Assembly: GCF_021228795.1 (NCBI RefSeq) | Contig: NZ_CP089309.1 | Coordinates: 5,205,501 to 5,269,500, forward strand | Length of the DNA: 64,000 nucleotides | Direction: 5' to 3' | Origin: Thiocapsa bogorovii | GTDB lineage: Bacteria > Pseudomonadota > Gammaproteobacteria > Chromatiales > Chromatiaceae | Shown: positions 24,299 to 59,498 of the stretch, one piece after another | Layout of the letters: each line of letters starts with the position of its first letter | Numbering within the stretch: position 1 is the stretch's first letter | Position numbers and translations under genes: made by a program | Notes under the pieces: generated by a model | Seen by the model: the letters and a program-made list of their open reading frames with translations, nothing else | Databases searched by the model: none | Told to the model about the DNA's origin: nothing

Positions 24299-25489
24299 AT
24301 GTCACGACGGACGCGGTTTAGCGCTTGGCCAGACGCGATGCCCTACTGGCGACTTTCCGGCTATTATTTTTTCTATTTCGCCGCCCTAGGTGCCTTGGTG
24401 CCTTTTTGGGGCCCCTATCTGCAATCGAAGGGGTTCGACGCCCTGGCGATCGGCCAACTCATGGCGATCCTGGTGGGCACCAAGATCGTCGCGCCGATGC
24501 TTTGGGGGCATATCGTCGACATCACCGGTCGGCGAATGCCGATCGTGCGTTTCGCCGCGCTGGTCTCGGCGGTGACCTTTATCGGCGTCTTTCCGGCCGA
24601 ACGCTTTTGGACCATCGCGGCGGCCATGGTCCTGTTCAGCTTCTTCTGGAACGCATCGCTCCCGCAGATGGAGGCGGTCACCTTCAATCACCTGCGTCAT
24701 CGGCCTGCGGGCTACGCCCTGATTCGGCTATGGGGCTCGGTCGGGTTCATCTTGGTGGTCGCGATTTTGGGCGTTCAGTTGGAGTCGGCGCCGATGAGCG
24801 TGGTGCCGATCTGGGTGCTCATCCTTTTCGTCGGCATTTGGCTCTCGACCCTGGCGGTCCCGGACAGTGCGCCCGTCACCGGGGGGCACGCCACCCTGTC
24901 GTTGCGCGCGCTCCTGGCGCGTCCGGACGTCAGGGCATTCCTCGCCGCATGCTTTCTCATGCAGGCGAGTCACGGGATCTATTACGCGTTTTACTCGATT
25001 CATCTTGCCGCGATGGGGTACTCGACCTCCGCGATCGGCGCGCTTTGGGCACTCGGCGTGGTCGCCGAGGTGCTGGTGTTTCTCGTGATGCGCAACCTGC
25101 TTGAGCGTTTCGGCGCGCGCCATGTCTTGATCTGGAGTCTGGCGATCGCGGTCGTTCGGTGGATTCTGATCGGTATCTTCGTGGCGATCCCAGCGATTGC
25201 GATCTTTGCCCAACTCATGCACGCCGCCACCTTCGGGACCTTCCATGCCGCCGCGATCCATCTCGTCCATCAGTATTTTCGCGGACGCACCCAGGGGCGC
25301 GGACAGGCCCTGTACAACAGCCTGAGCTTCGGTGCCGGCGGGGCGCTCGGCAGTCTGATCGGGGGGCTGCTCTGGAGCAGCGCGGGTGCAGGTGTCACGT
25401 TCGGGATCGCATCGGGTGCCGCAGCGCTTGGACTGCTCGCGACCTGGCGCTGGGTGGATCGTTCCCCGACGAAGGTTGCCGGCCACTAA
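24299..25489 (+). CDS. MFS transporter (HcaT / MFS_1_like type)
   Basis: The 396-residue protein has about twelve membrane helices. Its first part, MPYWRLSGYYFFYFAALGAL followed by VPFWGPYLQSKGFDALAIGQ, is typical of the 3-phenylpropionate/nucleoside-H+-symporter-like MFS group. Homologues in purple sulfur bacteria are annotated only as MFS transporters; the substrate is unknown. The stop codon TAA is also the first three bases of a palindromic repeat element. Transcription points toward glgX. Confidence 0.85.
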   Translation: MSRRTRFSAWPDAMPYWRLSGYYFFYFAALGALVPFWGPYLQSKGFDALAIGQLMAILVGTKIVAPMLWGHIVDITGRRMPIVRFAALVSAVTFIGVFPAERFWTIAAAMVLFSFFWNASLPQMEAVTFNHLRHRPAGYALIRLWGSVGFILVVAILGVQLESAPMSVVPIWVLILFVGIWLSTLAVPDSAPVTGGHATLSLRALLARPDVRAFLAACFLMQASHGIYYAFYSIHLAAMGYSTSAIGALWALGVVAEVLVFLVMRNLLERFGARHVLIWSLAIAVVRWILIGIFVAIPAIAIFAQLMHAATFGTFHAAAIHLVHQYFRGRTQGRGQALYNSLSFGAGGALGSLIGGLLWSSAGAGVTFGIASGAAALGLLATWRWVDRSPTKVAGH

Positions 25490-25674
25490 GCCGCCCCCGT
25501 TGCGGCATGCGTCGTTTGTTGGATTGGCTGGGCCGCGCCAGCTCAGACGACTGAGCTTGCGCGGTTTAAGGTATTAAAAACGTTAAAGTTTAAGCCGCGC
25601 CTTCGCTAAAGGTCGTGGGTGCACAAAACGTCGAACGCACTCGACAATGAGCATCTCGCTCTGGACGCGGTTTA
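25487..25674 (-). repeat. Paired palindromic element, locus 1 (modules B and A, inverted)
   Basis: Reversed copy of the element. Module B (25487-25568) begins TAAGCCGCC and ends GCGCGGTTTA; an AT-rich spacer (25569-25590) follows; module A (25591-25674) begins TAAGCCGCG and ends GGACGCGGTTTA. The first TAA is the stop codon of the MFS gene. The reverse complement of module A contains CAGAGCGAGATGCTCA and CGACGTTTTG as in the other loci. The element fills most of the gap to glgX. Confidence 0.8.
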
Positions 25675-25766
25675 ACGGGTCGCGTGTTATTCTATTTCCT
25701 TTCGCGGGTCCGCCGACGCCGCCAACCGCACCGAGCTTTCTCGGTTTGAGCTCATTCATCACAGCC

Positions 25767-27857
25767 ATGCCAGTCGATCAAGGTCCTTTTCAGATCCTAC
25801 CGGGTCGGCGCTACCCTAACGGGGCGAGCGTCGAAGACGACGGGGTCAACTTCTCCGTGTTCAGCCGCCATGCCTGCGGGGCCGAGCTGCTGCTGTATCG
25901 GAGCGCGGACAGCGCGGAGCCCTCCCAGGTCGTTCGGCTGGATCCGGAGGTCAACCACACGTTCTTCTATTGGCATGTTCTCGTCGTGGATCTTCCGCCG
26001 GGAACCCACTACACCTGGCGCATGGAAGGTCCGTTCGAGCCCCGTGCGCACGGTTGGCGTTTCGACGCCGGGACCGAGCTGCTGGACCCCTGGGCGCGCG
26101 CCGTCAACCTGTCGCATTGGGATCGCTGGAGTCGCCTGAACAAGGGGGTGAAGCCGCATGACTCGCCCCGCGCCCTGGTCCTTGCCGAAGAGTACGATTG
26201 GGAGGGAGACACGCCGATCCGCCGCCCGACCGAGCAGACGATCATCTACGAGCTGCATGTCGGCGGCTTTACCCGCCATGCCAGCTCGGGCGTGCATAAC
26301 CCCGGGACCTTCCTCGGTCTGATCGAAAAGATCCCGTATCTGAAGGATCTCGGCATCACACATGTCGAGCTGATGCCGGTCATGGCGTTCGACGAGCAGG
26401 ACGTCCCGCCGGGTGTCTGGGAGGCCGGGCTACGGAATTTTTGGGGCTACAGCAGCTTCGGTTTTTTCTCGCCCCATCCCGGTTACTGCGTCACGCCCGA
26501 GCAGGGCACGCATCGGCGCGAGTTCCGCGACATGGTCAAGGCCCTCCACAAGGCCGGGATCGGCGTCATCCTGGATGTGGTGTTCAACCACACCAGCGAG
26601 GGCGGCAACGGCGGTCCGATCATGAGCTTCAAGGGGCTCGGCAACGAGACCTTCTATTGCCTGGACAGTCTGGACAAACGCATCTACATGGACTTCACGG
26701 GCTGCGGCAATACGGTCAACGCCAATCACCCCGTGGTGTCTCGTTTCATCATCGACGCCCTCGAGTATTGGGTCCGCGAGATGCATGTGGACGGCTTCCG
26801 TTTCGATCTCGCCAGCGCCATGGCACGGGACTCGGACGGACGGCCGATGGCCAATCCGCCCGTGCTCTGGGCGATCGAGCTCTCCGATACGCTCAGCGCG
26901 TCCAAGATCATCGCCGAGGCATGGGATGCCGCCGGTCTGTATCAGGTCGGCAGCTTTCCGGGCTATCGCTGGATGGAATGGAACGGCTGCTTTCGCGACA
27001 GCGTGCGGCGGTTCGTTCGCGGCGACCCGGGGCTGGTTCCGGAGATCGCGACCCGGCTCGCGGGCAGCAGCGACCTCTACCAGGCCAACCTGCGTCAGCC
27101 CATCAACAGCGTGAACTTCGTCACCTGCCACGACGGCTTCACACTCTGGGATCTCGTTTCCTACGAGCGCAAGTACAATCATGCGAACCGCGAGGATAAT
27201 CGCGACGGGACCGACAACAACCTGAGCTGGAACTGCGGGGTCGAGGGTGAGACCGAGAACCCCGAGATCCTCGCGCTGCGCCGACGTCAGGCCAAGAATC
27301 TGTTGACCCTGATGTTCATGAGCCAGGGTATCCCGATGCTGTTGGCCGGCGACGAGGTGCTGCGTACCCAGCAAGGCAACAACAACACCTGGTGCCAGGA
27401 CAACCCCGTCGGCTGGTTCGACTGGTCGTTGGTCGAGCGCAACGGCGATATGCTGCGGTTCGTGCGCGGATTGATCGCATTGCGCAAGCGTCATGCGAGT
27501 CTGCGTCGCCGCCACTTCCTGTCCGGACAGCCGCGCAACGGCAGCGATTTTCCGGATGTCGTGTGGCATGGAACCACGCCGGGCGATCCGCCTTGGGACG
27601 ACCCGGACGCTCGGGTGCTCGCCTTCACCTTGGCGCGCGCGCGCCAAGACGAGGACTTGCTCTGCGTGCTCATCAACATGGATGCCGAGGCGAAGCGCTT
27701 CGAGATTCCGAAGATCGAGCAGTGTCGGTGGTTCACTGCGCTCGACACCGGACGGGCGAGCCCGACCGATCTGATCCTGCCCGAGGATCAGATTGCGCTC
27801 GAAACCGCGTCGGTCCTGGTGCGTTCGCGTAGTATTCAGATCTTGGAGGGACGCTAA
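25767..27857 (+). CDS. glgX: Glycogen debranching enzyme GlgX
   Basis: The 696-residue protein has an N-terminal CBM48/isoamylase domain (ILPGRRYPNGASVEDDGVNF) and a GH13 catalytic barrel. It shows the conserved VVFNHTSEGGNGGP, the nucleophile Asp in VDGFRFDLASAM, the acid/base Glu in IIAEAWDA and the third Asp in FVTCHDGFTLWD. It removes alpha-1,6 branches from glycogen. A longer open frame upstream is the repeat element, so the start MPVDQGPFQILPGRRYPN was taken. The stop TAA is the first triplet of another repeat copy. Confidence 0.95.
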   Translation: MPVDQGPFQILPGRRYPNGASVEDDGVNFSVFSRHACGAELLLYRSADSAEPSQVVRLDPEVNHTFFYWHVLVVDLPPGTHYTWRMEGPFEPRAHGWRFDAGTELLDPWARAVNLSHWDRWSRLNKGVKPHDSPRALVLAEEYDWEGDTPIRRPTEQTIIYELHVGGFTRHASSGVHNPGTFLGLIEKIPYLKDLGITHVELMPVMAFDEQDVPPGVWEAGLRNFWGYSSFGFFSPHPGYCVTPEQGTHRREFRDMVKALHKAGIGVILDVVFNHTSEGGNGGPIMSFKGLGNETFYCLDSLDKRIYMDFTGCGNTVNANHPVVSRFIIDALEYWVREMHVDGFRFDLASAMARDSDGRPMANPPVLWAIELSDTLSASKIIAEAWDAAGLYQVGSFPGYRWMEWNGCFRDSVRRFVRGDPGLVPEIATRLAGSSDLYQANLRQPINSVNFVTCHDGFTLWDLVSYERKYNHANREDNRDGTDNNLSWNCGVEGETENPEILALRRRQAKNLLTLMFMSQGIPMLLAGDEVLRTQQGNNNTWCQDNPVGWFDWSLVERNGDMLRFVRGLIALRKRHASLRRRHFLSGQPRNGSDFPDVVWHGTTPGDPPWDDPDARVLAFTLARARQDEDLLCVLINMDAEAKRFEIPKIEQCRWFTALDTGRASPTDLILPEDQIALETASVLVRSRSIQILEGR

Positions 27858-28104
27858 ACCGCGTCCAGAGCGAGATGCTCACTTTCGAGTGAGTTCGACG
27901 TTTGGTGCATTCACGGCCCTTAGCGGAGACGCGGTTTAGAATGATATATTTTTAATACTTTGAACCGCGCCGGCTCCGACCTTTGTGGAGACGCGGTTTA
28001 AATCTCCTTTCATCCCTTAAACCGCGTCAGCTCCGACCGTTGTCGGAGCTGACGCGGCCAAGCCAATCCAAAACACTACGCGTATCGAACCGGGCGCGGT
28101 TTAA
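27855..28104 (+). repeat. Paired palindromic element, locus 2 (A plus an enlarged B)
   Basis: Module A (27855-27938) runs TAAACCGCGTCCAGAGCGAG to GAGACGCGGTTTA; its TAA is the glgX stop. After a spacer rich in A/T (27939-27960), module B starts TGAACCGCGCCGGCTCC. It is interrupted by an extra GAGACGCGGTTTA end and restarts at 28017, ending GGGCGCGGTTTA at 28103. Inside is a perfect 16-bp stem, CCGCGTCAGCTCCGAC / GTCGGAGCTGACGCGG, with loop CGTT (28022-28057). The whole gap between glgX and the GH57 gene consists mainly of this element. Confidence 0.85.
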
Positions 28105-28148
28105 GGCGCCGACGATCCAGACAGGCATCTCCCTGACTGTGGTGATTC

Positions 28149-29378
28149 ATGACTCGGACCGACATTTATCACGCCCTCGGGTTGCACATGCACCAGCCGC
28201 CGGGCAACCTGCGCCTCCTGATCGATGCCAATCCTTGGGAGGCCGAGGAGATCATTCGGTGCTATGAGCGCGTGCCGCGCTACGCCCTGGAGTATCGCGA
28301 CGTCGCAAGGCTGCATGTCGGGTTTTCAGGTGTGTTGCTCGAGCAGCTTATCGATCCGGAGATCGTCGACCGGTATCGTCACATCGTCGACATTCCGGCG
28401 ATGCTCGAGCGCTACCGAGAAGCCGACAACATCGAGCTGATCGGCATGGGCTACTCCCACCCGATCTTCCCTTTGATACCGCATGCCGATTGGTCGGAGC
28501 AGCTTGCCTTGGGACGGGCGCAGATGGAGCAGGTCTTCGGGCGCGCGCCGCGCGGCTTTTGGCCCCCGGAGATGGCCTTCACCATGGCGATGATTCCCGC
28601 GCTGGTGCAGGCCGGCTACGACTATGTGGTCGTCGACGGCGTGCATGTCCGGCCGGAGGACGGCGTCAGCGACGTCTTTCGCCCCTATATCGCCTGCCAT
28701 GAGGGCGTCTGCATCAGCGTCGTTCCGCGCGATCGCGATGTCTCCAACGCCCAGGAGAGCGGACTCAACCCGCGTTGGTTTCGCGACGAGGTCCTGTGGC
28801 GGACGGCAGGCTCGCCGAGGCCGGACGAGAGGCGGCTCGTCACGACCTGGTCGGACGGCGAGAACGGCGGCTGGTTTCGCCAGACCCACGAGCCATCCGG
28901 ATTTTTCGGTCACTTCTTCGCGCCTTACATGGAGCAGGTGCGCGACGGGACCTGCCCGATCATCCCGGTACGTCTCGGGGACTATCTCGGGCGGGCGACG
29001 CCGACGGCCTATGCGCAGATCCAAACCGGTGCCTGGAACGTCGGATCCACCTCCGGAGAGGATCTCTCACAGTGGGCGGGCAGCGAGCGGCAGCGCGAAG
29101 CGGTCGCGGAGGTCGCACGGCTCAGTGCCCGCTATTGGCAGCTCGTGCGTGGATCCGCGGATGCGGCCGCTCAGGGCGGGGAGCCCCTGTCGCGTGCTCG
29201 TCGCTTGATTCTCGAGGCCGAGACCAGTTGCTTTCTCTTTTGGGGCGATTCCTGGATCCCGTATCTGCAGGAACGCACCCATGACGCATCGCTCGCATTG
29301 GACGCGGCGGAGATCGCGCTTGTGCAGCCGCCCCGGGCGAATGCGACAGGGCTTGGTTTGGGCGGCCTCGCGGAGTGA
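28149..29378 (+). CDS. Glycoside hydrolase family 57 protein
   Basis: The 409-residue protein begins MTRTDIYHALGLHMHQPPGN, with the GH57 motif HMHQPPG. The nucleophile is probably Glu141 in RGFWPPEMAFT and the acid Asp236 in TTWSDGENGGWF. GH57 enzymes act on alpha-glucans as amylopullulanase, glucanotransferase or branching enzyme; the short length excludes the large branching type. Its neighbours glgX and a DUF4912 gene support a role in glycogen metabolism. The stop overlaps the next start (GTGA). Confidence 0.88.
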   Translation: MTRTDIYHALGLHMHQPPGNLRLLIDANPWEAEEIIRCYERVPRYALEYRDVARLHVGFSGVLLEQLIDPEIVDRYRHIVDIPAMLERYREADNIELIGMGYSHPIFPLIPHADWSEQLALGRAQMEQVFGRAPRGFWPPEMAFTMAMIPALVQAGYDYVVVDGVHVRPEDGVSDVFRPYIACHEGVCISVVPRDRDVSNAQESGLNPRWFRDEVLWRTAGSPRPDERRLVTTWSDGENGGWFRQTHEPSGFFGHFFAPYMEQVRDGTCPIIPVRLGDYLGRATPTAYAQIQTGAWNVGSTSGEDLSQWAGSERQREAVAEVARLSARYWQLVRGSADAAAQGGEPLSRARRLILEAETSCFLFWGDSWIPYLQERTHDASLALDAAEIALVQPPRANATGLGLGGLAE

Positions 29379-30430: not shown

Positions 30431-30507
30431 GCGCGCAGGCGGGAAGGGTACGGCCACTAGTACCCCGTTGAGGTCGATGTCGATAATGGGAACAAGGTGC
30501 ACTTCTG

Positions 30508-31185
30508 ATGATCGGATCAAGATTGAATACTCTGCGCAGGACGACGACCCTGGTCTGCGCCCTTCTTCTGGTGTTTGGAGGGACTCCTGCGATGGCCGTC
30601 GAGGAACCGGATTACACGGTTGTTCGGACCTTTCCGGATTTCGAGCTTCGGCGTTATCCGCCGTATGCCGTTGCGGAAACCGAGGTCGCGGGCCCCTTCG
30701 ACGAGGCCGGGAATCAGGCGTTTCGCATCCTCGCCGGCTACATCTTCGGAGACAATCGCGCGAAGGCCAAGATCGAGATGACGGCGCCGGTCAGCCAACG
30801 GCCTGCGGCGGACGAGGGCGAGCGCATCGAGATGACTGCACCCGTGGTGCAGCGTCCTGCGAGGGGGGCCGAAGGCGAGACCTTCGTGGTCAGCTTCGTC
30901 ATGCCGGATCGGTTTACGCTGGACACCCTGCCCGAGCCGAGCGACCCTCGTGTGCGCCTGCGTGAAGAGCCCGGCAAGCTGATGGCGGTGCGCCGCTATT
31001 CCGGCCGTTGGACCGAAAAGAGCTATCGCGAGAACGAGACCCGGCTGCTGCGTGCCGTTGAGGAAGCCGGTCTGAAGCCTCTCGCCGCACCCGTCTATGC
31101 GCGCTACAACTCGCCCTTCTCGCTCTGGTTTATGCGACGAAACGAGGTCATGGTCGAGGTTGCGGAGTCCGGGACGAACCCTTGA
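30508..31185 (+). CDS. SOUL family heme-binding protein, exported
   Basis: The 225-residue protein has a Sec signal (TLVCALLLVFGGTPAMA) and a SOUL domain: VVRTFPDFELRRYPPYAVAE, IEMTAPVSQRP and the second EMTAPVVQRP, then YARYNSPFSLWFMRRNEVMV at the end. SOUL proteins bind heme or tetrapyrroles; in a photosynthetic host such a periplasmic protein could handle tetrapyrrole or heme. The repeated EMTAPV motif is probably a small internal duplication. Start ATG chosen for the signal peptide. Confidence 0.9.
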   Translation: MIGSRLNTLRRTTTLVCALLLVFGGTPAMAVEEPDYTVVRTFPDFELRRYPPYAVAETEVAGPFDEAGNQAFRILAGYIFGDNRAKAKIEMTAPVSQRPAADEGERIEMTAPVVQRPARGAEGETFVVSFVMPDRFTLDTLPEPSDPRVRLREEPGKLMAVRRYSGRWTEKSYRENETRLLRAVEEAGLKPLAAPVYARYNSPFSLWFMRRNEVMVEVAESGTNP

Positions 31186-31259
31186 CCGAGTGCTCCGATT
31201 CCGAGTTTGGCCGAGATCGATGCTCGTCGGGTCGCATGCGACGAGCAAACCGGCCTCTC

Positions 31260-31448: not shown

Positions 31449-31613
31449 CTGGCCTCCGGTCGGCTTGAGAGTGGTTTGACGATGGAAGATCTTGCCGCCG
31501 CCTTGCTGCTGCGCCTCGCGTTGGCGCCCCGCGACTCTCCGGAGATCGTTTCGACCGGACCGCGACTCAACGCTGTCCTTTTCATGGAAATCAGCAACCG
31601 CCTGGGGCGCGCG

Positions 31614-32144: not shown

Positions 32145-32345
32145 TAAACCGCGCCCAGAGCGAGAAACGTCGTTTTGTGGCTTTCTCCAGCTTTGCGCCA
32201 CGACGGACGTCTCGGTGAGGCGCGGTTTAAGACATTGACAAATATAATTTTGAATACCTTTAACCGCGTCGCCTCCAGCGCTTGTCGAGTCTGCCGGGGC
32301 CGATCCCATCCAAAAACATCGCATACCGCGCCGGGCGCGGTTTAA
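32145..32345 (+). repeat. Paired palindromic element, locus 3 (A and B)
   Basis: Module A (32145-32229) runs TAAACCGCGCCCAGAGCGAG to GGCGCGGTTTA and is diverged inside. The AT-rich spacer (32230-32259) contains AATATAATTTTGAATACC. Module B (32260-32344) starts TTAACCGCGTCGCCTCC and contains GTCTGCCGGGGCCGATCCCA and CAAAAACATCGCATACCGCG. It ends 8 nt before the glnS start, so the glnS leader is the end of the element. There is no gene stop at its left end. The 200 bp before it hold nothing recognisable. Confidence 0.85.
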
Positions 32346-32352
32346 GAGCATC

Positions 32353-35310: not shown

Positions 35311-35503
35311 TAAACCGCGTCCAGAGCGATATGCTTATTTTCGAGTGAGCACAACGTTTGGTGGATCCACAACCTTTGGCCAGGACGCCGTTTAAAATAG
35401 TATGTTTTTTAGAATCTTAAACCGCACCGACTCCAGCGGTCGTCAAGTCTGCCGGGGCCGATCCCATCCAAAAACGTCGCATACTGCGCTGGGCGCGGTT
35501 TAA
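35311..35503 (+). repeat. Paired palindromic element, locus 4 (A and B)
   Basis: Module A (35311-35394) reads TAAACCGCGTCCAGAGCGAT and contains CTTATT-TTCG-AGTGAG, ending GGACGCCGTTTA. The spacer (35395-35417) has TAGTATGTTTTTTAGAATC. Module B (35418-35502) begins TAAACCGCACCGACTCC and ends GGGCGCGGTTTA. It occupies the gap between the glycosylase gene and frmA. Its left end is 32 nt beyond the glycosylase stop, unlike the loci where the element supplies the stop. Confidence 0.88.
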
Positions 35504-35571: not shown

Positions 35572-36681
35572 ATGAAAGCACGTGCCGCCGTCGCCTGGGA
35601 GCCTGCGAAGCCTCTGTCCATCGAAGAAATCGACGTCGAGGGTCCGAAGACGGGCGAGGTCCTGCTCAAGGTCATCGCCTCCGGCGTCTGCCATACCGAC
35701 GCCTTCACGCTGTCCGGACAGGATCCGGAGGGTGCCTTCCCTTGCGTGCTCGGACACGAAGGCGGATGCGAGGTGGTGGAATGCGGCCCGGGCGTGAAGG
35801 GTCTGAAACCGGGCGACCATGTCATCCCGCTCTACATCCCGGAGTGCGGAGACTGCGAATACTGTCACTCGACCAAGTCCAACCTCTGCCAATCCATCGC
35901 CTCGACGGTCTGGACCGGCTACATGCCGGACGGGACACGTCGCTTCTCACACCAGGGCAAGCCGATTTTCCATTACATGGGCTGCTCGACCTTCTCCGAA
36001 TATACGGTCGTGCCCGAGATCGCTTTGGCGAAGATCAATCCCGCGGCGCCGCTCGACAAGGTCTGCCTGCTCGGTTGCGGAATCACGACCGGAATCGGTG
36101 CGGTTTTGAATACGGCCAAGGTCGAAGCCGGATCGACGGTCGCGGTCTTCGGTCTCGGCGGGATCGGCCTGTCCGTCATCCAGGGCGCTGTCATGGCGAA
36201 GGCTGCCCGCATTATTGGCATCGACCTGAATCCGGCCAAGTTCGAGATGGCCCGCCAGCTCGGCGCCACCGACTGTATCAACCCGAGGGATCTCGCGGGC
36301 AGCGTCACCGAGGCCATCGTCGAGATGACCCGGGGCGGCGTGGACTATTCCTTCGAGTGCATCGGCAACGTGGACGTGATGCGACAGGCGCTCGAGTGCT
36401 GCCGCATGGGATGGGGCGTGTCCACCATCATCGGCGTGGCCGGTGGCGGTCAGGAGATCCGCACCCGGCCGTTTCAACTGGTGACCGGCCGCACCTGGAA
36501 GGGCAGCGCCTTCGGCGGCGTCAAGGGTCGCAGCCAACTGCCCGGCTATGTCGAGCAATACCTCGCCGGCGAGATCGAGGTGGACCGGATGGTGACCCAC
36601 ACCATGCCGCTGGAAGACATCAACCATGCCTTCGATCTGATGCACAATGGCGAGAGCATCCGCTCCGTCATCGTGTTCTAA
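35572..36681 (+). CDS. frmA: S-(hydroxymethyl)glutathione dehydrogenase / class III alcohol dehydrogenase
   Basis: The 369-residue zinc enzyme oxidises S-hydroxymethylglutathione to S-formylglutathione with NAD+, the first enzymatic step of glutathione-dependent formaldehyde detoxification. Catalytic zinc ligands lie in [13 protein letters not shown] and [10 protein letters not shown]; the structural-zinc cluster is [15 protein letters not shown] (about 93-107). The NAD site is [23 protein letters not shown] precedes the ATG. The stop TAA is the first triplet of the repeat that separates it from fghA. Confidence 0.96.
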
Positions 36682-36880
36682 ATCGCGTCCAGAGCGAGAT
36701 GCTCACTTTCGAGTGAACTCAACGTTTGATGCGTCAACGGCCCTTGACGGGGACGCGGTTTAAAATGGTTCAAGATGGTTTATTTTTTAGTTTCTCAAAC
36801 CGCGCCGTCTCCAGCGGGCGTCAAATCTGCCAGGGCCGATCCCGTCCAAGAACATCGCATACCGCGCTGGGCGCGGTTTA
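36679..36880 (+). repeat. Paired palindromic element, locus 5 (A and B), between frmA and fghA
   Basis: Module A (36679-36762) starts TAAATCGCGTCCAGAGCGAG, ends GGACGCGGTTTA and supplies the frmA stop. The spacer (36763-36794) is AT-rich, with TTTATTTTTTAGTTTCTC. Module B (36795-36880) starts CAAACCGCGCCGTCTCC and ends GGGCGCGGTTTA. The fghA Shine-Dalgarno AGGAGGT starts at the next base, so frmA stop to fghA start is element plus 11 nt. The pair of co-functional genes is therefore separated exactly by this element. Confidence 0.9.
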
Positions 36881-41121: not shown

Positions 41122-41178
41122 ATGATGGGCATCCTGCTCGGAGGCGTGATGGCCCTTTTGCTCGAGTCCTTTCTCTAA
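41122..41178 (+). CDS. Possible 18-residue hydrophobic peptide ending in the repeat
   Basis: A tiny frame encodes MMGILLGGVMALLLESFL and ends in a TAA that is the first triplet of repeat locus 6. It matches the pattern in which the element supplies a gene's stop, which is the only reason to list it. There is no good ribosome binding site. It may equally be the end of a lost gene, or nothing. Confidence 0.2.
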   Translation: MMGILLGGVMALLLESFL

Positions 41179-41260
41179 ACCGCGCCGGCTCCAACGGTCG
41201 TCAAGTCTGCCGGCGCCGATCCGATCCAAACAGATCGCATACCGTGCCGGGCGCGGTTTA
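41176..41260 (+). repeat. Palindromic element, locus 6 (module B only)
   Basis: A single module B: TAAACCGCGCCGGCTCC, then GTCGTCAAGTCTGCCGGCGC, CGCATACCGTGCC and finally GGGCGCGGTTTA. It ends 2 nt before the ilvD stop codon (minus strand), so it forms the immediate 3' flank of ilvD. It shows that B can exist without A. Confidence 0.88.
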
Positions 41261-43176: not shown

Positions 43177-43401
43177 GGGAAGCTACCTGGCGGGAAGGAT
43201 CGGATCCCGCCAAGTATACCCGGCTGAAACGCGCCCGATAGGGCATGGCGGGTTCGGAATTTGGGTTTGCCGGCGTGCGACAAACAACCTCGGCAGGGCG
43301 CGTTTCAGGGTGTTGAGAACTCCATGAACCACGTCTTCGCCAGGGTCGAACATGACTCAAGCCGTTTACATGCTAAAGAATCTGTCTTGGACTCGTTATC
43401 T

Positions 43402-43487
43402 TGAACCGCGTCCGCGCCGATGTCGCGGGAGAATGCGAGCTTTTGAGACCCACCCCGACCCACACCGGGGGCACGGGACGCGGTTCA
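43402..43487. repeat. Palindromic element, locus 7 (single, diverged)
   Basis: A single module with ends TGAACCGCGTCC and GGGACGCGGTTCA; the inside does not match modules A or B closely. The right end, read on the minus strand as TGAACCGCG, provides the TGA stop of cowN. This is the reverse-strand version of the stop-codon pattern. The 225 bp between it and ilvD hold no gene. Confidence 0.7.
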
Positions 43488-44126: not shown

Positions 44127-45056
44127 ATGACCGGAGAGACCACGACTACAACCAAGAGAAGCGCCGGTCGAAAGGGGCGGGGGATTCCTCTCGGCGAGGC
44201 GGTCGATGCACCGCGTTCGCAGTTCACGAGCGCAAACGGCTGGCGGATCGCCTATTACGCCGACACCTCGGCCAGGGGGCGGCCACTGGTGCTGGTGCAT
44301 AGCGTCAACGCCGCGCCGAGTAGCTTCGAGGTCAAGCCGCTGTTCGAGCACTACCGCTCCAAACGTCCCGTCTACAGCCTGGATCTACCTGGATTCGGCC
44401 ACTCGGAGCGTCGCCCGGCGGGCTATACGCCAAAGCTCTTCGCAGACGTCCTCGCCCGGTTCCTGGAGCAGGTCGTCGGGCAGCCCGCGGACATGGTTGC
44501 GCTGTCGCTCAGCGGGGAGTTCGCGGCACGTGCGATCGGCAACAAGCCCGGGACGGTCGCCTCCCTGGCGCTCATCGCACCGACCGGATTCAGTCAACGC
44601 GTCCCGCCGGGGCCTGGTTTCGGTCGGATCGTCCATCCGATCCTCAAGACTCCCGGACTGAGTCAACTCCTCTTCGATCTCGTCGCATCCAAGCGCAGCA
44701 TCCGGTACTACCTCGGACAGTCCTTCGTCGGCGAGCCGCCACAAGAGATCCTCGACTACGCCTACGCCACATCACATCAGCCGGGAGCGCGACACGCCCC
44801 ACTGGTCTTCCTCTCAATGCAACTCTTTACGCCGGAAGCGGGCGACCGACTCTACGCTAAGCTCACGGACCTGCCCGTGCTGGCGATCGCCGATCGCGAC
44901 CCCTACGTCGATTTCGAGCGACTTGACGACTTCATCGCCCGTCACCCGAATTGGTCACGCCAGCGTTTGGCGCCGAACATGGGCCTGCCGCACTGGGAGC
45001 GGTTGTCGGAGACCCTTGCGGCTTTGGATGCCTTTTGGCCGAAATCGGGCGGTTAA
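44127..45056 (+). CDS. Alpha/beta hydrolase
   Basis: The 309-residue protein begins MTGETTTTTKRSAGRKGRGI, a basic, disordered N-terminus before the hydrolase fold (GRPLVLVHSVNAAPSSFEVK; SLDLPGFGHSERRPAG). The nucleophile region is MVALSLSGEFAARA, where the usual GxSxG is altered; the acid is in AIADRDPYVD and the His in GLPHWERLSE. The substrate is unknown. A longer frame starts at TTG 72 nt upstream, but GGAAG sits before the ATG. The stop TAA is part of repeat locus 8. Confidence 0.78.
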   Translation: MTGETTTTTKRSAGRKGRGIPLGEAVDAPRSQFTSANGWRIAYYADTSARGRPLVLVHSVNAAPSSFEVKPLFEHYRSKRPVYSLDLPGFGHSERRPAGYTPKLFADVLARFLEQVVGQPADMVALSLSGEFAARAIGNKPGTVASLALIAPTGFSQRVPPGPGFGRIVHPILKTPGLSQLLFDLVASKRSIRYYLGQSFVGEPPQEILDYAYATSHQPGARHAPLVFLSMQLFTPEAGDRLYAKLTDLPVLAIADRDPYVDFERLDDFIARHPNWSRQRLAPNMGLPHWERLSETLAALDAFWPKSGG

Positions 45057-45135
45057 ACCGCGTGCAGAGTGAGCGGCTCCCTCTTGATTGAGTCCAAATC
45101 GGTTCACTCCGACTCTCGACGTCCACGCGGTTTGA
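45054..45135 (+). repeat. Palindromic element, locus 8 (single, A-like)
   Basis: One module with ends TAAACCGCGTGCAGAGTGAG and CCACGCGGTTTGA. The start resembles module A (CAGAG.GAG..GCTC) but the rest has diverged. Its TAA is the stop of the alpha/beta hydrolase gene. It lies in the convergent gap before pilY1. Confidence 0.72.
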
Positions 45136-50166: not shown

Positions 50167-50177
50167 GTTTAGCCGCC

Positions 50178-52102: not shown

Positions 52103-55100
52103 TCAACGATTGCTCGGGTGATTCAACTCCGAGCGATCGCCTCTGTTTTTGCTGCGCGTTGCCCGTTTGGCGTCTCGTTTTTCTTCCCATTCGGTCAAAA
52201 GATCCCACGCGACCGGGACGACAAAGAGCGTGAGAAATGTCGCAGTTGCCAGGCCAGTGACGAAGGTGGATGCCATCGAACCCCAGATGACGGAGTAGCT
52301 GGGGATGCCGAGGGCCATCGGCATGAGTCCCAACGTGGTGGTCAGGGTGGTGAGGACGATGGGTCGCAGACGCAGGCGTACGCCCTCGCGGATGGCCGCG
52401 TGGCGGTCGAGTCCATCTCGGTAGCGTTGGTTGACGAAGGCGAGGAGGACGAGCGAGTCGTTGACGACCACGCCGGTGACGCCGACCACGGCGATGAAGC
52501 TGTTGATGGTGAACAGCGACTGGGTGACGACCTTGCCGAAGACGATCCCGATGATCGAGAACATGACCGCCGAGAGGATGATCAGCGGTTGGGTGTAGGA
52601 CTTGAACTGGGTTGCGAGGATCAGGTAGATCAACAGCACGGCGAGGCCGAACGCCTGGGCGAGGCTGTCGAAGGAGCGTTGGGTTTCTTCGAACTCGCCG
52701 CCGAAGATCAGTGTAGCCCCGGGGTAAAGGGCGCGTAGCTCCGGGTATTGAGCACGCACCCAGGCCGTGACCTGGGCGGAGGAGATTGGTGCGCCGGAGC
52801 GGATATTCGCGGTGACGGTCAGGCTGCGTTGGCGTTGATAGCGTTTGAGCTCGCCGGGCTGGACCTCGGCGATAGGCTGGACAATGTCGCGCAGCAAGAC
52901 CGGCCCGGAGGGGTGCTCGAGGACCGGAATGTCGAGCGCGGCTTCGGGCGCGTCCAGATAGGCGGGGTCGACCCGGAGCTTGAGGTCGACCTCTTCGTCG
53001 CTCAGACGGTATTTGCCGATGTAGCGCCCGTCCAGGACCGAGGCGGCCATGCGTGCGGCGTCGCCCGCGGTGAGGTCGAGCTCGCGGGCGCGTGACTCGT
53101 CGACCGCAAGCCGAAACACCCGCGAGGGGATACCGCGATCGTCTTGAAGATCGATCAGGTTGGGGCCGAATTCGGGATGGTCCCGCAAGCGCTGCAATAG
53201 ATCAGCACTCATCCCCCGCACGGCTGTTTCGCTCGATCCGGCAATCTGGATGTTGACGTCCTTTCCGGTGGGTGGACCGTCCTTCTCGGCTCGGACGCGG
53301 ATCTTGACGTCTGGCTCTGCAAACTGCTCGATCAGGCGCTCGCGCATCCGGTCGAGATGCCCCAGCGGGTCGTCGAAGGCCTGATCTGACTTGTTCGGCA
53401 AGGCGACCATGACCGTGCCCAGATGGCGTCCGAGCTCGTCTTCGTAATCCTCGCTGATGGTGAAGCCGGCAAAGCCGGCGGCGGAGCGTGCGTAGCCGGG
53501 GCCGTCGGCCATGATGAAGCGGGCGATCGCCTTTACGCGTTCGTGAGTCTGCTCGATCGGCGTCTCGGGCGGGCCTTCGATGAAGGCATAGTAGGTGGTG
53601 TAGTCGTCCGGGAAGAACTGAATACGCACCAGGGGCGCAATGCCGGCGATCGAGACGCCGAGGACGGCGATGGCCGTGAGGAAGGCTACGAGCACCACCG
53701 ATAGGCTCAACACCCGAAAGCGCATCGTGACCCGGATCAGGCGATCGGTCATGGCTCGGAGAAGACGCATCAAGCGGTTTTCCCGCTCGCTGTGCACGCT
53801 GTCTCGGCCGGCTGCCGATGCGTTCGGTCGTGGTCCGAAATCAAGGTAGTGCAGTGGTAGGATCAACAAGCACTCGAACAGCGAAGCCAAGATGGCGAAG
53901 CTTACGGCCTTCGGGATGAGCGCGAAGAACTCGCCCGTGGAGCCGGTCATGATCAGCATCGGCAGGAACGCCGCGACAGTCGTGGCGGTCGCGGAGATCA
54001 CCGGCCAGGCGACCTCGGCGGTACCCTCGATGATCGCCTGCTCGATCGGCTCGCCATCCTGAACATGCCGGTAGATGTTCTCCACGACGACGATGGCATC
54101 GTCGACGATGATCCCGGACACCAAAACGAAGCTGAAGAGCGTGATCTCGTTGAGCGAGTTGCCGGTCAGCTGCATCAGGACCGCGGTGACCATGAATGAA
54201 AAAGGAATCCCGACGGTGACCAGGCCGGCGTTGCGTATCCCCATGAAGTACCAGAGGATCAGGCTAACCAGCATGACCCCGACGATCATATTCCAGCCAA
54301 GGGTTTGGATGGATTCCTTAATGTAGGTTGTCGAGTCTTGGGTAAGGACAACCTCGATGCCTTCCCGCTCGAGCAGGGGCGCGATCTCCTCGATGATGGT
54401 CTCGGCCGCGGCGTAGATCTCCATGGCGTTGCCGCCCTTGGCCTTGAGCAGCCGCAGTGCGACACCGTCCTTGCCGTCTGCGGAGGTGATGACGCTCGGG
54501 GTGCGATACCCGAGGCCGGCGTCCGAGATGAGGTCGTCAACGGTGACGAAAGAGCCGTCGGCGTCGCGTCGGACCACGGTGGTGACCACCTGGTCGCGGG
54601 TGCGGAAGCGCTCGTCCACGCGCACCACGTATTCGCCGGTGCCGTCGCTGAAATCGCCGGCCGGGAGGGTGACGTTGGCGTCCTGCAGGGCCGCGGCGAC
54701 CTGATCCAGGCTCACGCCCTGCGACTTAAGCTTCCAGGGATCGAGAAAGATGTGGAACTCGCGACGCTGCTCCCCGTCGAGCTTCACCTCGGTGACCCCC
54801 GGAATCTGGGCCATGCGAATCTGCAATTCCTTCGCGATCAGTGACAATGCGCGGTTGGAGCGATCGCCGACGAGGTTGACCGCGACGACAGGCAGCCAGA
54901 ACGAGGTACGAATCAGGTCGAAGCGCGGTGGGTCGACGCCTTGGGGAAGGCGCTCGAGGATGCTGAGCACGCGAAAGCGCAGCTCGTCGTATAGAGCGCC
55001 GTAATCGGTATCGTCGCGAAACTTCACGACCAGGGTCGAGCGCTCGCGCACCGAGTTGGCGCGGATGAACTCGACGTGCTCCAGACCGTCGAGCGCCAGC

Positions 55101-55306
55101 TCGATCTCACGCGTGACCAGGGCTTCCACATCGCGGGGGGAGGCGCCCGGATAGACCGTTGTGATGACGACCTTGCCGAAGTTGACCTCGGGATAGCGCT
55201 CGGTCGGCAGGGCGTCGAGCGCGAAGACGCCGGCGACGATCATGAAGACGAACAGCAGATTAAAGAGCACCCGCTGGCGGAGGGTGAAACGAACGACGGC
55301 GCGCAC
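52103..55306 (-). CDS. RND family efflux transporter
   Basis: The 1067-residue protein has twelve membrane helices and two large periplasmic loops. The N-terminus FTLRQRVLFNLLFVFMIVAG and the segment SGIIVDDAIVVVENIYRHVQ (with charged TM4 residues) fit the proton-relay helix of RND pumps. It is closer to the broad AcrB/MdtB-like group than to metal-specific CusA. The GTG start is 3 nt after the adaptor stop, behind GGGAG. It needs an outer membrane partner, possibly the TolC at 21693. Confidence 0.92.
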   Translation of the reverse strand: MRAVVRFTLRQRVLFNLLFVFMIVAGVFALDALPTERYPEVNFGKVVITTVYPGASPRDVEALVTREIELALDGLEHVEFIRANSVRERSTLVVKFRDDTDYGALYDELRFRVLSILERLPQGVDPPRFDLIRTSFWLPVVAVNLVGDRSNRALSLIAKELQIRMAQIPGVTEVKLDGEQRREFHIFLDPWKLKSQGVSLDQVAAALQDANVTLPAGDFSDGTGEYVVRVDERFRTRDQVVTTVVRRDADGSFVTVDDLISDAGLGYRTPSVITSADGKDGVALRLLKAKGGNAMEIYAAAETIIEEIAPLLEREGIEVVLTQDSTTYIKESIQTLGWNMIVGVMLVSLILWYFMGIRNAGLVTVGIPFSFMVTAVLMQLTGNSLNEITLFSFVLVSGIIVDDAIVVVENIYRHVQDGEPIEQAIIEGTAEVAWPVISATATTVAAFLPMLIMTGSTGEFFALIPKAVSFAILASLFECLLILPLHYLDFGPRPNASAAGRDSVHSERENRLMRLLRAMTDRLIRVTMRFRVLSLSVVLVAFLTAIAVLGVSIAGIAPLVRIQFFPDDYTTYYAFIEGPPETPIEQTHERVKAIARFIMADGPGYARSAAGFAGFTISEDYEDELGRHLGTVMVALPNKSDQAFDDPLGHLDRMRERLIEQFAEPDVKIRVRAEKDGPPTGKDVNIQIAGSSETAVRGMSADLLQRLRDHPEFGPNLIDLQDDRGIPSRVFRLAVDESRARELDLTAGDAARMAASVLDGRYIGKYRLSDEEVDLKLRVDPAYLDAPEAALDIPVLEHPSGPVLLRDIVQPIAEVQPGELKRYQRQRSLTVTANIRSGAPISSAQVTAWVRAQYPELRALYPGATLIFGGEFEETQRSFDSLAQAFGLAVLLIYLILATQFKSYTQPLIILSAVMFSIIGIVFGKVVTQSLFTINSFIAVVGVTGVVVNDSLVLLAFVNQRYRDGLDRHAAIREGVRLRLRPIVLTTLTTTLGLMPMALGIPSYSVIWGSMASTFVTGLATATFLTLFVVPVAWDLLTEWEEKRDAKRATRSKNRGDRSELNHPSNR

Positions 55307-55309
55307 GGT

Positions 55310-56335
55310 TCAGCGACTCCCGAACACGCGAACGCGATCGCCGGGCTTCAGCCCCGTGGCCTTGACACGGATGAGGTCCGGGTTCAGCGCGTCGGGGCCG
55401 AGAGTGAGCGCCGAAATCCGCTCGCCGCTCTCTCGAATGACCCAGGATTCCTCGTAGCTGGAGTCGAGCGCCGATGGCGGGAGACTGACGGCGCCCGTGA
55501 CTTCGGGCAGGCTTAGGCGCAGACGCATGCGAAGGCCGCCGCGCGCGGGTTCCAACGGTTCGGTCAAGGCCAGCTCCACGGCAATCTTGCGGGTTTCCGG
55601 ATCGAAGCCGGGGTTTACGCGATAGATGCGTGCCCGGGTTGAATCGCCGGCAGTGTTGCCGACGTCGAGGATCTCTAACGCGAGATCCGATCGTGTCTGC
55701 TCAAGGGCGGCGAATTGCTCCGGGGTCAAGGCGAAGGGGACCAAGAGGGTCGAGAAATCCGCCGCGCGACCGACCGTCTCGCCGCCGCGGACCCATTGTC
55801 CGAGCTCGATACTGCGTGCGGTGACCGACCAACCGACCGGCGCCGAGATGGTCGCGCGCGCCAAACGCTCTTCGAGCATGCGCCGTTTGACATTCAGCGC
55901 CCTCAAGGCGTGACTGTTGTCGCGCAGCGATTGCTCGAGCGTGTCCAATTGGGAGGCCGAAGCGCTGTTTTGGCGCACCAGCTCCCGAAATCGGGTGACC
56001 TCGCGTTGATCGTATTCGATCTGCGAGCGCAGACGTTCCTCTTGGACGCCGACCTCCTCGAGATCGAGCTCCAAGAACGTGGTGTCCAGTTGAGCGAAGC
56101 GCCCGCTCTCGTCGATCCGGTCGCCGACATCGGCGAAGAGCGCTTGGACCCGCCCGTCCGTCTCTGCGACCAAGGGTGCCTCGGCGAGGGCGCGGGTAAA
56201 CCCTACGAGTGCGATCTCTCGCATCGCGGGGACCGCGGTGACCAGGGCCGGCTCGGAGATGTCAGCAGCCGCGACACCCTCGAGCGCGGCGATCAGCAGA
56301 CAAGCCGCGGACGCTGTGAGTCGAAAAAATCTCAT
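55310..56335 (-). CDS. RND efflux periplasmic adaptor protein
   Basis: The 341-residue protein begins MRFFRLTASAACLLIAALEG with a Sec signal (VAAA). It has a lipoyl/barrel-sandwich domain (PLVAETDGRVQALFADVGDR), a coiled-coil helical hairpin (EERLRSQIEYDQREVTRFRE; LRALNVKRRMLEERLARATI), and beta-barrel and C-terminal domains ending RVRVFGSR. It couples the pump to the outer membrane channel. The frame extends far upstream, antisense to other features; the ATG before the signal was chosen. Confidence 0.9.
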   Translation of the reverse strand: MRFFRLTASAACLLIAALEGVAAADISEPALVTAVPAMREIALVGFTRALAEAPLVAETDGRVQALFADVGDRIDESGRFAQLDTTFLELDLEEVGVQEERLRSQIEYDQREVTRFRELVRQNSASASQLDTLEQSLRDNSHALRALNVKRRMLEERLARATISAPVGWSVTARSIELGQWVRGGETVGRAADFSTLLVPFALTPEQFAALEQTRSDLALEILDVGNTAGDSTRARIYRVNPGFDPETRKIAVELALTEPLEPARGGLRMRLRLSLPEVTGAVSLPPSALDSSYEESWVIRESGERISALTLGPDALNPDLIRVKATGLKPGDRVRVFGSR

Positions 56336-56622
56336 GAGAGACGCGGTTTGTGCCGACAGTGTCGCGTCGCCCCCAAGCCGGGATGGAGATCGCAGGGGAA
56401 CGAATCCAATTCGCGCATGACAAGCCCTCTCCAGTGTTTCGACGCCAAGCTGCCGTCGGTTTCGCCGGCGACGACCTGAGGTTCGGATCGCGTTCGACGC
56501 CCGATCGAGCGCGGCCGGCTCAGACTGCCCTAGTGTACAATCGCTCGCGAGAAAAATGACGAAGAGACTTGCTGCACCCGGGAGACATCCGCGTCGACCG
56601 GGCGGGGCGGGCGGAGGGGTAC

Positions 56623-59301
56623 TTGAACCGAAAGTCCGATAGCTCGACGCCGGGATCCGGTGGGGGTGTGCCGCCCGAGAAACGTTCGACGGAGCGCGAA
56701 CGGGTTCGTTCCGATTTCCGATCTGATGCCGGCTCCGACGCGGATTTCGGCTTTGAGCCGGGCGCGCGCTCGCAGCCGCCTCGCCCGAGTCCGACATCCG
56801 AGGGGTCGGCGGCGCGTGCCGCAAGAATCAATCATCGCCGTGATCGGGGTTCATCACGGCGCGGCCGCTCCGTTTTCGGTTGGTTCACCGGCTTTCTCGC
56901 CGTCTTGGGCGCGCCCCTACAACTCCTCGCACTGGGGCTGCTCGGGGCGGGTGTCTTCGTAGCGGTCCATGCACCGGAGCTTCCGAGCGTCGAGAGTCTG
57001 CGTCAGGTCCAGTTCGAGGAGCCGCTGCGCGTCTTCAGCAGCGACGGTGGTCTGATCGCGGAGTTCGGCGTCGAACGCCGCCGTCCGGTGGCCTACGAAG
57101 ACATCCCGCCGCTGGTGGTCAACGCCTTTCTCGCCACCGAGGATGCCCGCTTCTTCGAGCACGGCGGGGTCGATGCGATCGGCATGGGCCGCGCCTTGCT
57201 GAGCTTCGCCTCCACCGGCACCAAGGCTCAGGGCGGAAGCACCATCACCATGCAGGTGACCCGAAACTTCCTGCTCAGCTCGGAAAAGACCTTCCAACGC
57301 AAGCTCGCCGAGATCTTGCTCACGCTGCAGGTCGAACGGACCCTGACGAAGGATCAGATCCTCGATCTCTATCTGAATCAGATCTTTTTCGGGCACCGCG
57401 CCTACGGCATCTCGGCGGCCGCCGCGCTTTACTACAACAAGGAGCTCGACCAACTCACACCCGCCGAGGCGGCGATGTTGGCGGGTATCCCGAAGGCGCC
57501 CTCCAGCAACAACCCCGTCACCAATCCCGAACGGGCGCTCGAGCGACGCAACTACATCCTCTCGCGCATGCTCGAGCTCGGTCAGATCGATCAGGAGGAG
57601 TACGAGATCGCGGTCTTGACACCCGATATGGCGCGACTGCATCGACGTCAGCCGGATCTCGACGCGGGTTACATCGCGGAGATGGCGCGCCAGACCATTG
57701 TCCAGCATTACGGCGAGGAGGCTCTCAGTCAGGGGTTTCGGGTCACCACGACGATCGATTCGCGTTTGCAGAGCGCCGCGCAGGAGGCGGTGCGCCGAGC
57801 CTTGCGCGATTACGACCGCCGCCACGGCTATCGCGGGGCCGAGGCCAAGATCGACCTCGAGGGTGCGACGGAGGCCGACATGGACGCTTATCTCGAGACC
57901 GTCACGACGATCCCGGACCTGACGCCCGGACTGGTGACGCGCGCCTCCACCGGCGAGGCGGAGGTCTACATCGGCTCGGGTCGTCGCATCGAGCTGGGCC
58001 TCAAGCAGGTGGCTTGGGCACAGGAGTTCCGCAACGCGAATTGGCGCGGCCCCCGGCCGAGGCGGGTAACGGACGTGCTTGCGGTCGGCGATCTGGTGAG
58101 ACTCCAACGCGATGGCGCCGCGAAGGATGGCGAGGGAGATTGGGAGCTTGGTCAGACGCCGAGTGTCGCCGGCGCCTTGGTCTCGATCGCGCCGCAGGAC
58201 GGCGCGGTGCGCGCCTTGGTCGGGGGTTATTCGTTCAGTGTGAGCAAGTTCAACCGGGCCGTCGATATGCGCCGTCAGCCAGGCTCGAGCTTCAAGCCCT
58301 TCGTCTTTGCTGCAGCACTGCATGAGGGCTGGACGCCGGCGAGTCTGATCAAGGACGAGTCCGTGAAGCTGACCGGGGACCAGGATTGGAACCCGCGTAA
58401 CTCGGATCGCAAAGAATTGGGGCCGATTCGGATGCGGCGTGCCCTGGCGCTCTCGCGCAACCTGGCGGCCATCAATCTGCTGCAGAGCGTCGGCTTGGAG
58501 GACGCTCAAAACTACATCCGGGCTTTCGGATTCGACCTGGATGCCATGCCTCTGGGTCTGTCAATGGCGCTGGGGACGGGCGAGATGTCGCCGATGAAAC
58601 TGGCCGAAGGCTATGCCGTTTTCGCCAACGGCGGATTCCATGTGACGCCCTATTTCATCCAGCGGATCGAGAGCGGCGACGGGCGGATTCTCTTCGAGTC
58701 CAACGCACCGCGATCCTGCTCGGATTGTTGGTACCGCTACGGCGATGATTCGGCGCGGGTGCAGGGCACGCAGGCCGGCGCGAAGGCCCCGCAGGTGATC
58801 GACCCGCGGATCGCCTATCAGATCACCTCGCTGCTGCGCGAGGTCGTCGAGGCCGGCACGGGAACACGCGCCAAGAAGCTGAAGCGCGAGGACATCGTGG
58901 GCAAGACGGGCACGACCAACGACGTGCGCGATTCTTGGTTTGCCGGCTATCAGGCCGACTTCGCCACGGTCGCCTGGATGGGCTTCGATGATTTCGAGAA
59001 GCTCGGCCGGGGCGAGGAGGGCGGCCGGGCCGCGCTGGGCATGTGGGTCGATTTCATGGGCAATGCACTGGAGAATCTCCCGATCGCACAGCTCGATCCG
59101 CCGCCGGGCATGGTACAGGTGCGGGTCGACCCGAACCGCGGCACCGAGACCAAGGCCAGGAACGGTATCCTCGAGATGGTGAACGAGGAATTCAGCAATG
59201 CCCTTCTCGGTCCCGAGCCGGTCAGAATCGCGGGCCCGACCCGGAAGAAGGACACCTCCGTGCGTCGCTCCGCGCCGCGGGTGATGGACGATCTCTTCTG
59301 A
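56623..59301 (+). CDS. mrcA: Penicillin-binding protein 1A (bifunctional glycosyltransferase/transpeptidase)
   Basis: The protein of about 892 residues has a long disordered, basic N-terminus, one membrane helix (FLAVLGAPLQLLALGLLGAG), a GT51 domain (NAFLATEDARFFEHGGVDAI; AQGGSTITMQVTRNF), an OB-like insert and a transpeptidase with PGSSFKPF, the SRN motif and GKTGTTND. It polymerises and cross-links peptidoglycan. The start is uncertain: a TTG at 56623 with GGAGG before it was chosen; another TTG 54 nt upstream also fits. The cytoplasmic N-terminal tail is longer than in E. coli PBP1A. Confidence 0.93.
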   Translation: MNRKSDSSTPGSGGGVPPEKRSTERERVRSDFRSDAGSDADFGFEPGARSQPPRPSPTSEGSAARAARINHRRDRGSSRRGRSVFGWFTGFLAVLGAPLQLLALGLLGAGVFVAVHAPELPSVESLRQVQFEEPLRVFSSDGGLIAEFGVERRRPVAYEDIPPLVVNAFLATEDARFFEHGGVDAIGMGRALLSFASTGTKAQGGSTITMQVTRNFLLSSEKTFQRKLAEILLTLQVERTLTKDQILDLYLNQIFFGHRAYGISAAAALYYNKELDQLTPAEAAMLAGIPKAPSSNNPVTNPERALERRNYILSRMLELGQIDQEEYEIAVLTPDMARLHRRQPDLDAGYIAEMARQTIVQHYGEEALSQGFRVTTTIDSRLQSAAQEAVRRALRDYDRRHGYRGAEAKIDLEGATEADMDAYLETVTTIPDLTPGLVTRASTGEAEVYIGSGRRIELGLKQVAWAQEFRNANWRGPRPRRVTDVLAVGDLVRLQRDGAAKDGEGDWELGQTPSVAGALVSIAPQDGAVRALVGGYSFSVSKFNRAVDMRRQPGSSFKPFVFAAALHEGWTPASLIKDESVKLTGDQDWNPRNSDRKELGPIRMRRALALSRNLAAINLLQSVGLEDAQNYIRAFGFDLDAMPLGLSMALGTGEMSPMKLAEGYAVFANGGFHVTPYFIQRIESGDGRILFESNAPRSCSDCWYRYGDDSARVQGTQAGAKAPQVIDPRIAYQITSLLREVVEAGTGTRAKKLKREDIVGKTGTTNDVRDSWFAGYQADFATVAWMGFDDFEKLGRGEEGGRAALGMWVDFMGNALENLPIAQLDPPPGMVQVRVDPNRGTETKARNGILEMVNEEFSNALLGPEPVRIAGPTRKKDTSVRRSAPRVMDDLF

Positions 59302-59304
59302 AGC

Positions 59305-59498
59305 TAAACCGCGTCTCGAGCCATTTAGGACGTTTGGTGTGAACTCCTCCGGCTCTTTAATTCAATAGGTTGGAGCTGGACGCGGGTTAGAAAGTGAAAA
59401 AATTTTTACTCTTGAACCGCGTCGACTCGAAATCCTATTGGTCCCGGAAGCGCTTGAAGCTCATGCAACTGGTGCATGATGCTCCGGACGCGGTTCAA
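59305..59498 (+). repeat. Paired palindromic element, locus 9 (A and B, diverged)
   Basis: Module A (59305-59389) starts TAAACCGCGTCTCGAGCC, contains ACGTTTGGTGTGAAC, and ends GGACGCGGGTTA. The spacer has GTGAAAAAATTTTTACTC, itself nearly palindromic. Module B (59413-59497) starts TGAACCGCGTCGACTC and ends GGACGCGGTTCA. Its left end is 3 nt after the PBP1A stop; its right end supplies the TGA stop of the DUF6279 gene on the minus strand. Confidence 0.82.

Follow-up and report, generated by a model that had tools for sequence, protein, structure and literature searches.

Repeat modules of the window and of its genome

The window, a stretch of 64,000 nucleotides from Thiocapsa bogorovii (genome G000), contains nine repeat loci whose modules, 81-86 bp long and bounded by inverted ends, lie where the initial annotation had placed them (Table 1). 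As first described, six loci have two modules, the locus at 25487 stands in inverted orientation, 41176 consists of a B module and nothing else, and the diverged A at 45054 has no partner; missing from the initial list was 43225-43307, the partner module of 43402-43487. The description of the loci as entirely intergenic holds broadly, but at six of the nine the outer TAA or TGA doubles as the stop codon of a neighbouring gene according to our own gene finder (25487, 27855, 36679, 43487, 45054 and 59497), and 35311 is a possible seventh, where a 183-codon open frame terminates, the gene caller having preferred another frame. The codon matching the 25487 stop is TAG in G004 and is followed there by other DNA.

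Table 1. Repeat modules in the window, with DDE_3 matches elsewhere in G000
Feature	Position	Strand	Remark
B-type module, inverted locus	25487..25568	-	TAA is the stop of a + gene ending at 25489
A-type module of inverted pair	25591..25674	-
A module	27855..27938	+	TAA is the stop of a gene ending at 27857
Truncated 40-bp module in locus 2, start B-like, end A-like	27961..28000	+
B-type module	28018..28103	+
A-type module	32145..32229	+	Orthologous copy in G004
B module	32260..32344	+
A module	35311..35394	+	Possible stop for an open frame that ends at 35313
B module	35418..35502	+
A module	36679..36762	+	TAA is the stop of a gene ending at 36681
B module	36796..36880	+
Single B module	41176..41260	+
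Old module	43225..43307	.	TGA..TCA in G000, TAA..TTA in G002/G010
Old partner module	43402..43487	.	Right end is the TGA stop of a - strand gene
Single diverged A module	45054..45134	+	TAA is the stop of a gene ending at 45056
Old module	59305..59389	+	6 bp past first base of a TGA stop
Old module	59413..59497	+	Right end is the TGA stop of a - strand gene, 59495-60376
Weak, degenerate pair	24137..24320	.	Left end is the TGA stop of a + gene
DDE_3 matches in G000	G000:C1:742120, 3978297, 5366025, 5519919		Loci L200, L216, L209, L226

The spacer of the old pair (43308-43401) measures 94 bp in G000, is similarly long in G004, and is about 20 bp in G002, G003, G008 and G010; its G001 version contains a GTAG-REP-like repeat. 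This repeat (GTAGGATGGGTAGAGCGCAGCGAAACCCATC and variants) also lies at the same intergenic sites in relatives, at orthologues of 45054, 27855 and 41176 (G001, G004, G010, G003 and G007; L167, L161, L163, L165, L166 and L176), and in G001 it apparently forms the TAG stop of the 45054 orthologue. At the G008 orthologue of 59305-59498 (L175, about 16740-16800), the terminal GCGGTTCA is present three times in tandem beside the stop of the minus-strand gene.

The family extends far beyond nine loci. The strict pattern TAAACCGCG-N(50-80)-CGCGGTTTA has 213 matches in the 5.65-Mb genome and its reversed control none, so the repeats are not a product of chance; a looser pattern (TRA/TYA ends, 62-72 inner bases) has 281. 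With one 193-bp pair as BLAST query there were 210 candidate places, and the 40 that were scored match it at 78-100% along almost its whole length. A set of twenty 20-kb stretches, selected partly for holding copies, contains 88 modules (80-90 bp, most of them 84-86) that bear the 11-bp terminal stem TRAACCGCGYC, and a larger sample gave 280 modules against 19 in the same sequence reversed. The mobile unit is the 193-bp pair, and the consensus of 30 pairs with fetched loci confirms the proposed plan, in which an AT-rich spacer of 23 bp joins A to B. The view of A and B as different modules, in contrast, did not stand: A is homologous to B read on the opposite strand, with an interior score matched by 28 of 2000 shuffles, and one A' copy and one B copy of G028 gave a score matched by 5 of 5000. 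Judged from these alignments, the unit consists of two inverted homologous modules of about 84 bp, and B is an inverted, diverged copy of A. An IHF-type spacer was also considered, and a by-eye comparison with the consensus gave no good match.

Because of its length the element holds no gene, and the sampled stretches yielded no autonomous copy: an inverted partner lies at module distance from 136 of 146 strict plus-strand ends, and of the other 10, three have an inverted end 141-2950 bp off, their sequences being unlike outer ends.

The strict pattern is found in 13 of 74 genomes, G000 included, all from one family. Within the genus it is carried by 8 of 11 genomes, in 121-588 copies, and five genomes of other genera of the same family carry 269, 80, 3, 1 and 1. 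It is absent from the congeners G005, G006 and G009, although the exact 18-base outer end is present in each of G005 and G006; G025, with no strict match, has one pair with a one-base mismatch. Further afield, 369 genomes sampled across the class gave no match besides G000, plasmid records gave none, and 80 loci (1.34 Mb, e.g. from Thiocystis, Thiodictyon and Thiohalocapsa), a set from which records very near G000 are possibly missing, held no module at threshold.

Relatives also differ in whether they carry pairs or singles. At one locus G002 has a pair, G004 only a module matching its right half (94%) and G010 only a left-half match (90%), while G000 and G008 are empty; at three further loci (103823, 115862 and 102687 in block coordinates) G000 and G004 differ as pair versus single, with the common module in place. 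Since deletion between repeated module ends explains both the reciprocal singles and the pair/single differences, single modules would, where their history is visible, be deletion derivatives of pairs.

Target duplication and insertion into stop codons

Comparison of syntenic blocks of G000, G004, G001, G010, G002 and G008 revealed the empty sites that the initial annotation had proposed to look for. The 29 filled/empty comparisons, in which the same locus often recurs, include 16 with a gap of exactly 2 bases; 12 of the 16, from five loci, show a clean TA. The other 17 comprise 13 with other gaps (-14 to 10) and four in which CA, TC or TG replaces TA; at one of the latter loci both empty relatives have a TGA stop. 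The target site duplication is TA, as in IS630/Tc1-mariner elements. The insertion target is YTAR: among TA..TA elements at one stop, 55 of 57 have an R just beyond the far TA, and for those away from stops an R adjoins the TA in 90 of 98 flanks. One study of an IS630-associated transposon reportedly states in its title a preference for CTAG.

The main property of the family, absent from the initial annotation, is insertion into stop codons. Read on its own strand, each end gives TAA, so that insertion into a TAA or TAG stop regenerates TAA, and host genes stay intact. In G000, for example, CACCATG-TA-[element]-TA-GGAGAG stands where G004 and G008 have the empty CACCATGTAGGAGAG, the stop having changed from TAG to TAA. 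A second locus, empty in G008 (CTTTAACC), has a TTAA common to two convergent genes, both of which retain a stop where the site is filled in G000, G004, G002 or G010.

Genes being called with a home-made gene finder, none of 61 elements in a first sample lay inside genes, and the TRA of the module was the stop itself in 37 of 77 3' gene flanks. In a larger set 19 of 199 elements were called inside genes; the 20 in-gene modules are probably false, because all score 23-28, while 242 of 280 modules score 29-34. The remaining elements lie in tandem (67 >>, 55 <<), convergent (43 ><) and divergent (14 <>) gene contexts. A 3' neighbour is present for 165 elements, 91 of which are at offset 0 of its stop and 23 lie 1-12 bp downstream, and across five syntenic blocks an exact module end coincides with the gene end for 57 of 839 predicted genes.

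Stops are occupied above the supply of YTAR sites. In the five blocks, selected for their synteny, 53 of the 110 elements lie at a stop, against 114 of 884 free noncoding YTAR sites (p 2e-16), a p-value that is overstated because the blocks are orthologous to each other and their counts are not independent. This enrichment could reflect survival of insertions alone, with no targeting, and the chances of that are about even. In-gene insertions are rare, insertion into a stop codon is harmless by design, and merely 11 of the 110 elements lie between divergent genes, all of which fits survival. The enrichment nevertheless persists in convergent gaps, expected to be promoter-free, where 12 of 24 elements are at a stop versus 51 of 224 free sites (p 0.006, again too small since loci are common to several species). 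The reuse of sites also speaks against survival alone. The stops at 36679 and 45054 hold different subtypes in different species, and between 36679-36880 of the window and L161 12824-13017 of G004, a close species, the stop codon and flanks are the same while the module subtypes differ, which points to repeated (parallel) insertion or replacement. At a third locus with an empty site, in G002, insertions occurred at two TAs 5 bp apart in G000 and G004. We regard targeting and survival as nearly balanced.

An IS630-family partner element

When 31 relatives that carry few copies or none were searched for the outer end, nine had matches. One such match, in G006, bounds a 1277-bp TA-to-TA element (L206, 1371-2647) whose 317-residue open frame scores as an IS630 transposase (NF033545, 155 bits, cutoff 100; also PF13358/PF13592), this partner being the only element of the two kinds with such a DDE_3 domain. 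Over about 30 bp its ends share 21-24 of 30 positions with the outer ends of the MITE and 15-17 of 30 with inner module ends, and the insertion coincides exactly with the stop codon that closes an open frame of 456 codons or more. At E<=1e-20, relatives of the transposase occur among the 74 genomes only in G006 (one) and G014 (five fragments), and neither in G000 nor in any MITE-rich genome. The five G014 loci each have one similar end (22-24/30; shuffled loci give 0.2 matches of >=18 per locus), and only frames of 3-49 codons end at the visible end of these copies, so that stop-codon insertion by the autonomous element is represented by one case.

Other IS630-type genes were also considered as partners. 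PF13358 has 45 matches in the 11 genomes of the genus, and a mismatch-tolerant end scan of the 30 with a fetched locus found both ends in L206 only and one MITE-like end in L207; the rest reached 18-19/30, with 11 such matches in shuffled loci. The four other DDE_3 matches in G000 have no end above 18/30 against the consensus end of the partner. A lone IS630-type end was seen at L281 1518 in G044 (28/30), with no partner end found in the 3-kb locus.

The TA duplication, the YTAR target and the matching IS630-family element together identify the family as a MITE, as do its terminal inverted repeats, its ends common to an autonomous element of a related genome and to the G014 fragments, its small size (84-193 bp) and its high copy number. 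We are confident that these are non-autonomous MITEs of IS630/Tc1-mariner type, moved by an IS630 enzyme into YTAR sites and stops and decaying to singles. An IS630-family transposase acting in trans would have recognized the outer ends of about 30 bp (TA-AACCGCGYCCAGMGCGRNATGCGT...); the entry of the 193-bp unit into YTAR with duplication of the TA is seen in the comparisons, and insertion into TAA or TAG restores TAA, and into the TTAA of two convergent stops restores both. Later deletion between directly repeated module ends would then reduce a pair to a single module. Mobilization in trans is what we infer from the lack of a matching transposase in the MITE-rich genomes, where, to judge from the searches, the source copy has probably been lost. 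The copies in G000 are thus probably relics, unless another enzyme serves.

Conserved stems and relation to described repeats

At end position 2, within the duplicated TA, 259 modules have A-T in 182 cases and G-C in 44, with 227 paired versus 161 expected. In pairs, with other letters left out, this position agrees within modules (104 A-T, 24 G-C, 8 mixed R/Y) and shows no covariation between the outer ends (49 A-T, 3 G-C, 14 mixed); one module switches between TGA..TCA and TAA..TTA between species at the same locus. Among relatives of the detecting genome the 11-bp stems diverge 0.26 times as much as the interiors (bootstrap 0.09-0.47), and less than them at all five unique old loci, although each locus was detected in several genomes and some bias to intact ends may therefore remain. 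These five were obtained from 30 clusters after removal of eight in genes and four with fewer than two similar relatives, the other 18 being merged. With stems about four times less divergent and covariation within modules, something keeps the hairpin paired. Compensatory change is weakly indicated: double changes occur in stems at two of the five loci and other changes at three.

One possibility, which we consider tentative, is that neutral template-switch correction of quasipalindromes, and not selection, keeps the stems paired. It agrees with covariation that stays within modules and does not link a pair's outer ends, and with the lack of an RNA wobble bias, but correction alone should not, by our reasoning, cut the substitution rate of the stems about fourfold, a figure that comes from five loci.

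We think it unlikely that the modules are structured RNA or terminator elements placed at gene ends by selection, with mobility secondary. Their 3' location, the conservation of stems over interiors and the within-module covariation would suit such a role. A role in RNA predicts that G-U mismatches outnumber A-C in the transcribed sense. In sense orientation, however, 1991 cells contain 49 G-U and 50 A-C mismatches (positions 1-5, 28 and 10; positions 6-11, 21 and 40), pairs show no preferred orientation relative to the gene that they stop (14 AB, 16 BA, 7 same), Rfam has no match at E<=1 in 24000-61000 of the window, and the strict pattern is absent from three congeners. A canonical terminator was likewise rejected, the T-run of the consensus lying about 11 bases past the stem and orientation being unbiased. 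Predicted folds have z from -3.19 to -0.01 for single modules and -1.96 for the DNA fold of the pair. For the kept pairing, a cause at the level of DNA is no less likely than one in RNA.

The initial remark that no described repeat with this plan was known stands in that neither the open-access literature nor Rfam held a description, and one elsewhere is possible; as a class the repeat is not new, being a MITE. A term search of a 2024 review of prokaryotic MITEs (PMC10969869) did not return 'stop codon', 'IS630' or 'Chromati'. The family is a new one, with an unusual paired-module plan and stop-codon insertion, of a kind that is itself known (RUP/IS630-Spn1, ERIC, GTAG-REPs).

By analogy of mechanism, and as far as the available text of the sources goes, the closest described system is RUP of Streptococcus pneumoniae, with about 110 copies of 107 bp thought to be mobilized by IS630-Spn1 (PMC2229807, PMC3049150). 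RUP, too, is a short intergenic MITE with TA at its IS630-type ends and is over-represented between convergent genes, but, compared by description, it is a single AT-rich 107-bp unit and not a pair of modules (PMC2229807, PMC3049150, in part). ERIC/IRU of enterobacteria similarly has TA at the ends and a target site duplication, and ERIC (127 bp) is co-transcribed with neighbours in Yersinia; unlike the present family, it is one unit of other sequence (PMC2229807, in part). The accessible portions of these papers make no mention of stop-codon insertion for RUP (PMC2229807, PMC3049150) or ERIC (PMC2229807). BOX of pneumococcus is a modular MITE of variable module number, but its modules are others, the inner boxB can be absent or multiplied, and there is no end-to-end inverted pair in the part of the source available (PMC3049150). 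IS630/ISY100 elements share TA insertion with duplication, theirs by cut-and-paste, and differ in being autonomous or marked (PMC2170065, in part). In TnRErm46 the parB stop is supplied by the TAG of its CTAG-containing flanking repeat; this is a single resistance transposon at one gene and no MITE family (PMC6794481, in part).

That the ends of a repeat can supply stop codons has a precedent in GTAG REPs and BIMEs, inverted palindrome dimers near gene 3' ends whose termini often supply a TAG stop (PMC3733652, in part). Those are units of 20-40 bp with a GTAG tag and tyrosine transposases (RAYTs), whereas here modules of about 84 bp have TRAACCGCG ends, a TA duplication and an IS630-family DDE transposase; no 20-40 bp hairpin with a GTAG/CGTC tag at its base was found, the modules starting with TRAACCGCG and being mostly 84-86 bp. 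It is very improbable that a RAYT transposase of IS200/IS605 type, which duplicates no target, spread the family as REP/BIME-like palindromes. The intergenic 3'-end sites, inverted dimers with spacer and stop-supplying ends are shared with GTAG REPs (PMC3733652, in part), but the ends are symmetric and TA stands on either side, YTAR is preferred, empty sites keep one TA and the ends match those of the IS630 element, even if the second TA might, were the target one-sided, formally be part of the element.

As IS630-type MITEs, these elements show a route to high transposon abundance in a compact genome: with a YTAR target and ends that start with A, stop codons are safe landing sites on either strand. 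Pairs, reciprocal singles and empty sites within one genus form a natural series for the decay of MITEs, and the conserved stems make later use by the host testable. We would give only a small chance to the bolder proposal that the host has co-opted the stop-anchored hairpins as a genome-wide 3'-end device for several percent of its genes and that the IS630 relative seeks gene ends. If the former were true, the device could serve insulation, termination or mRNA protection; if the latter were, a mobile element would be a distributor of stop-codon-plus-hairpin cassettes.
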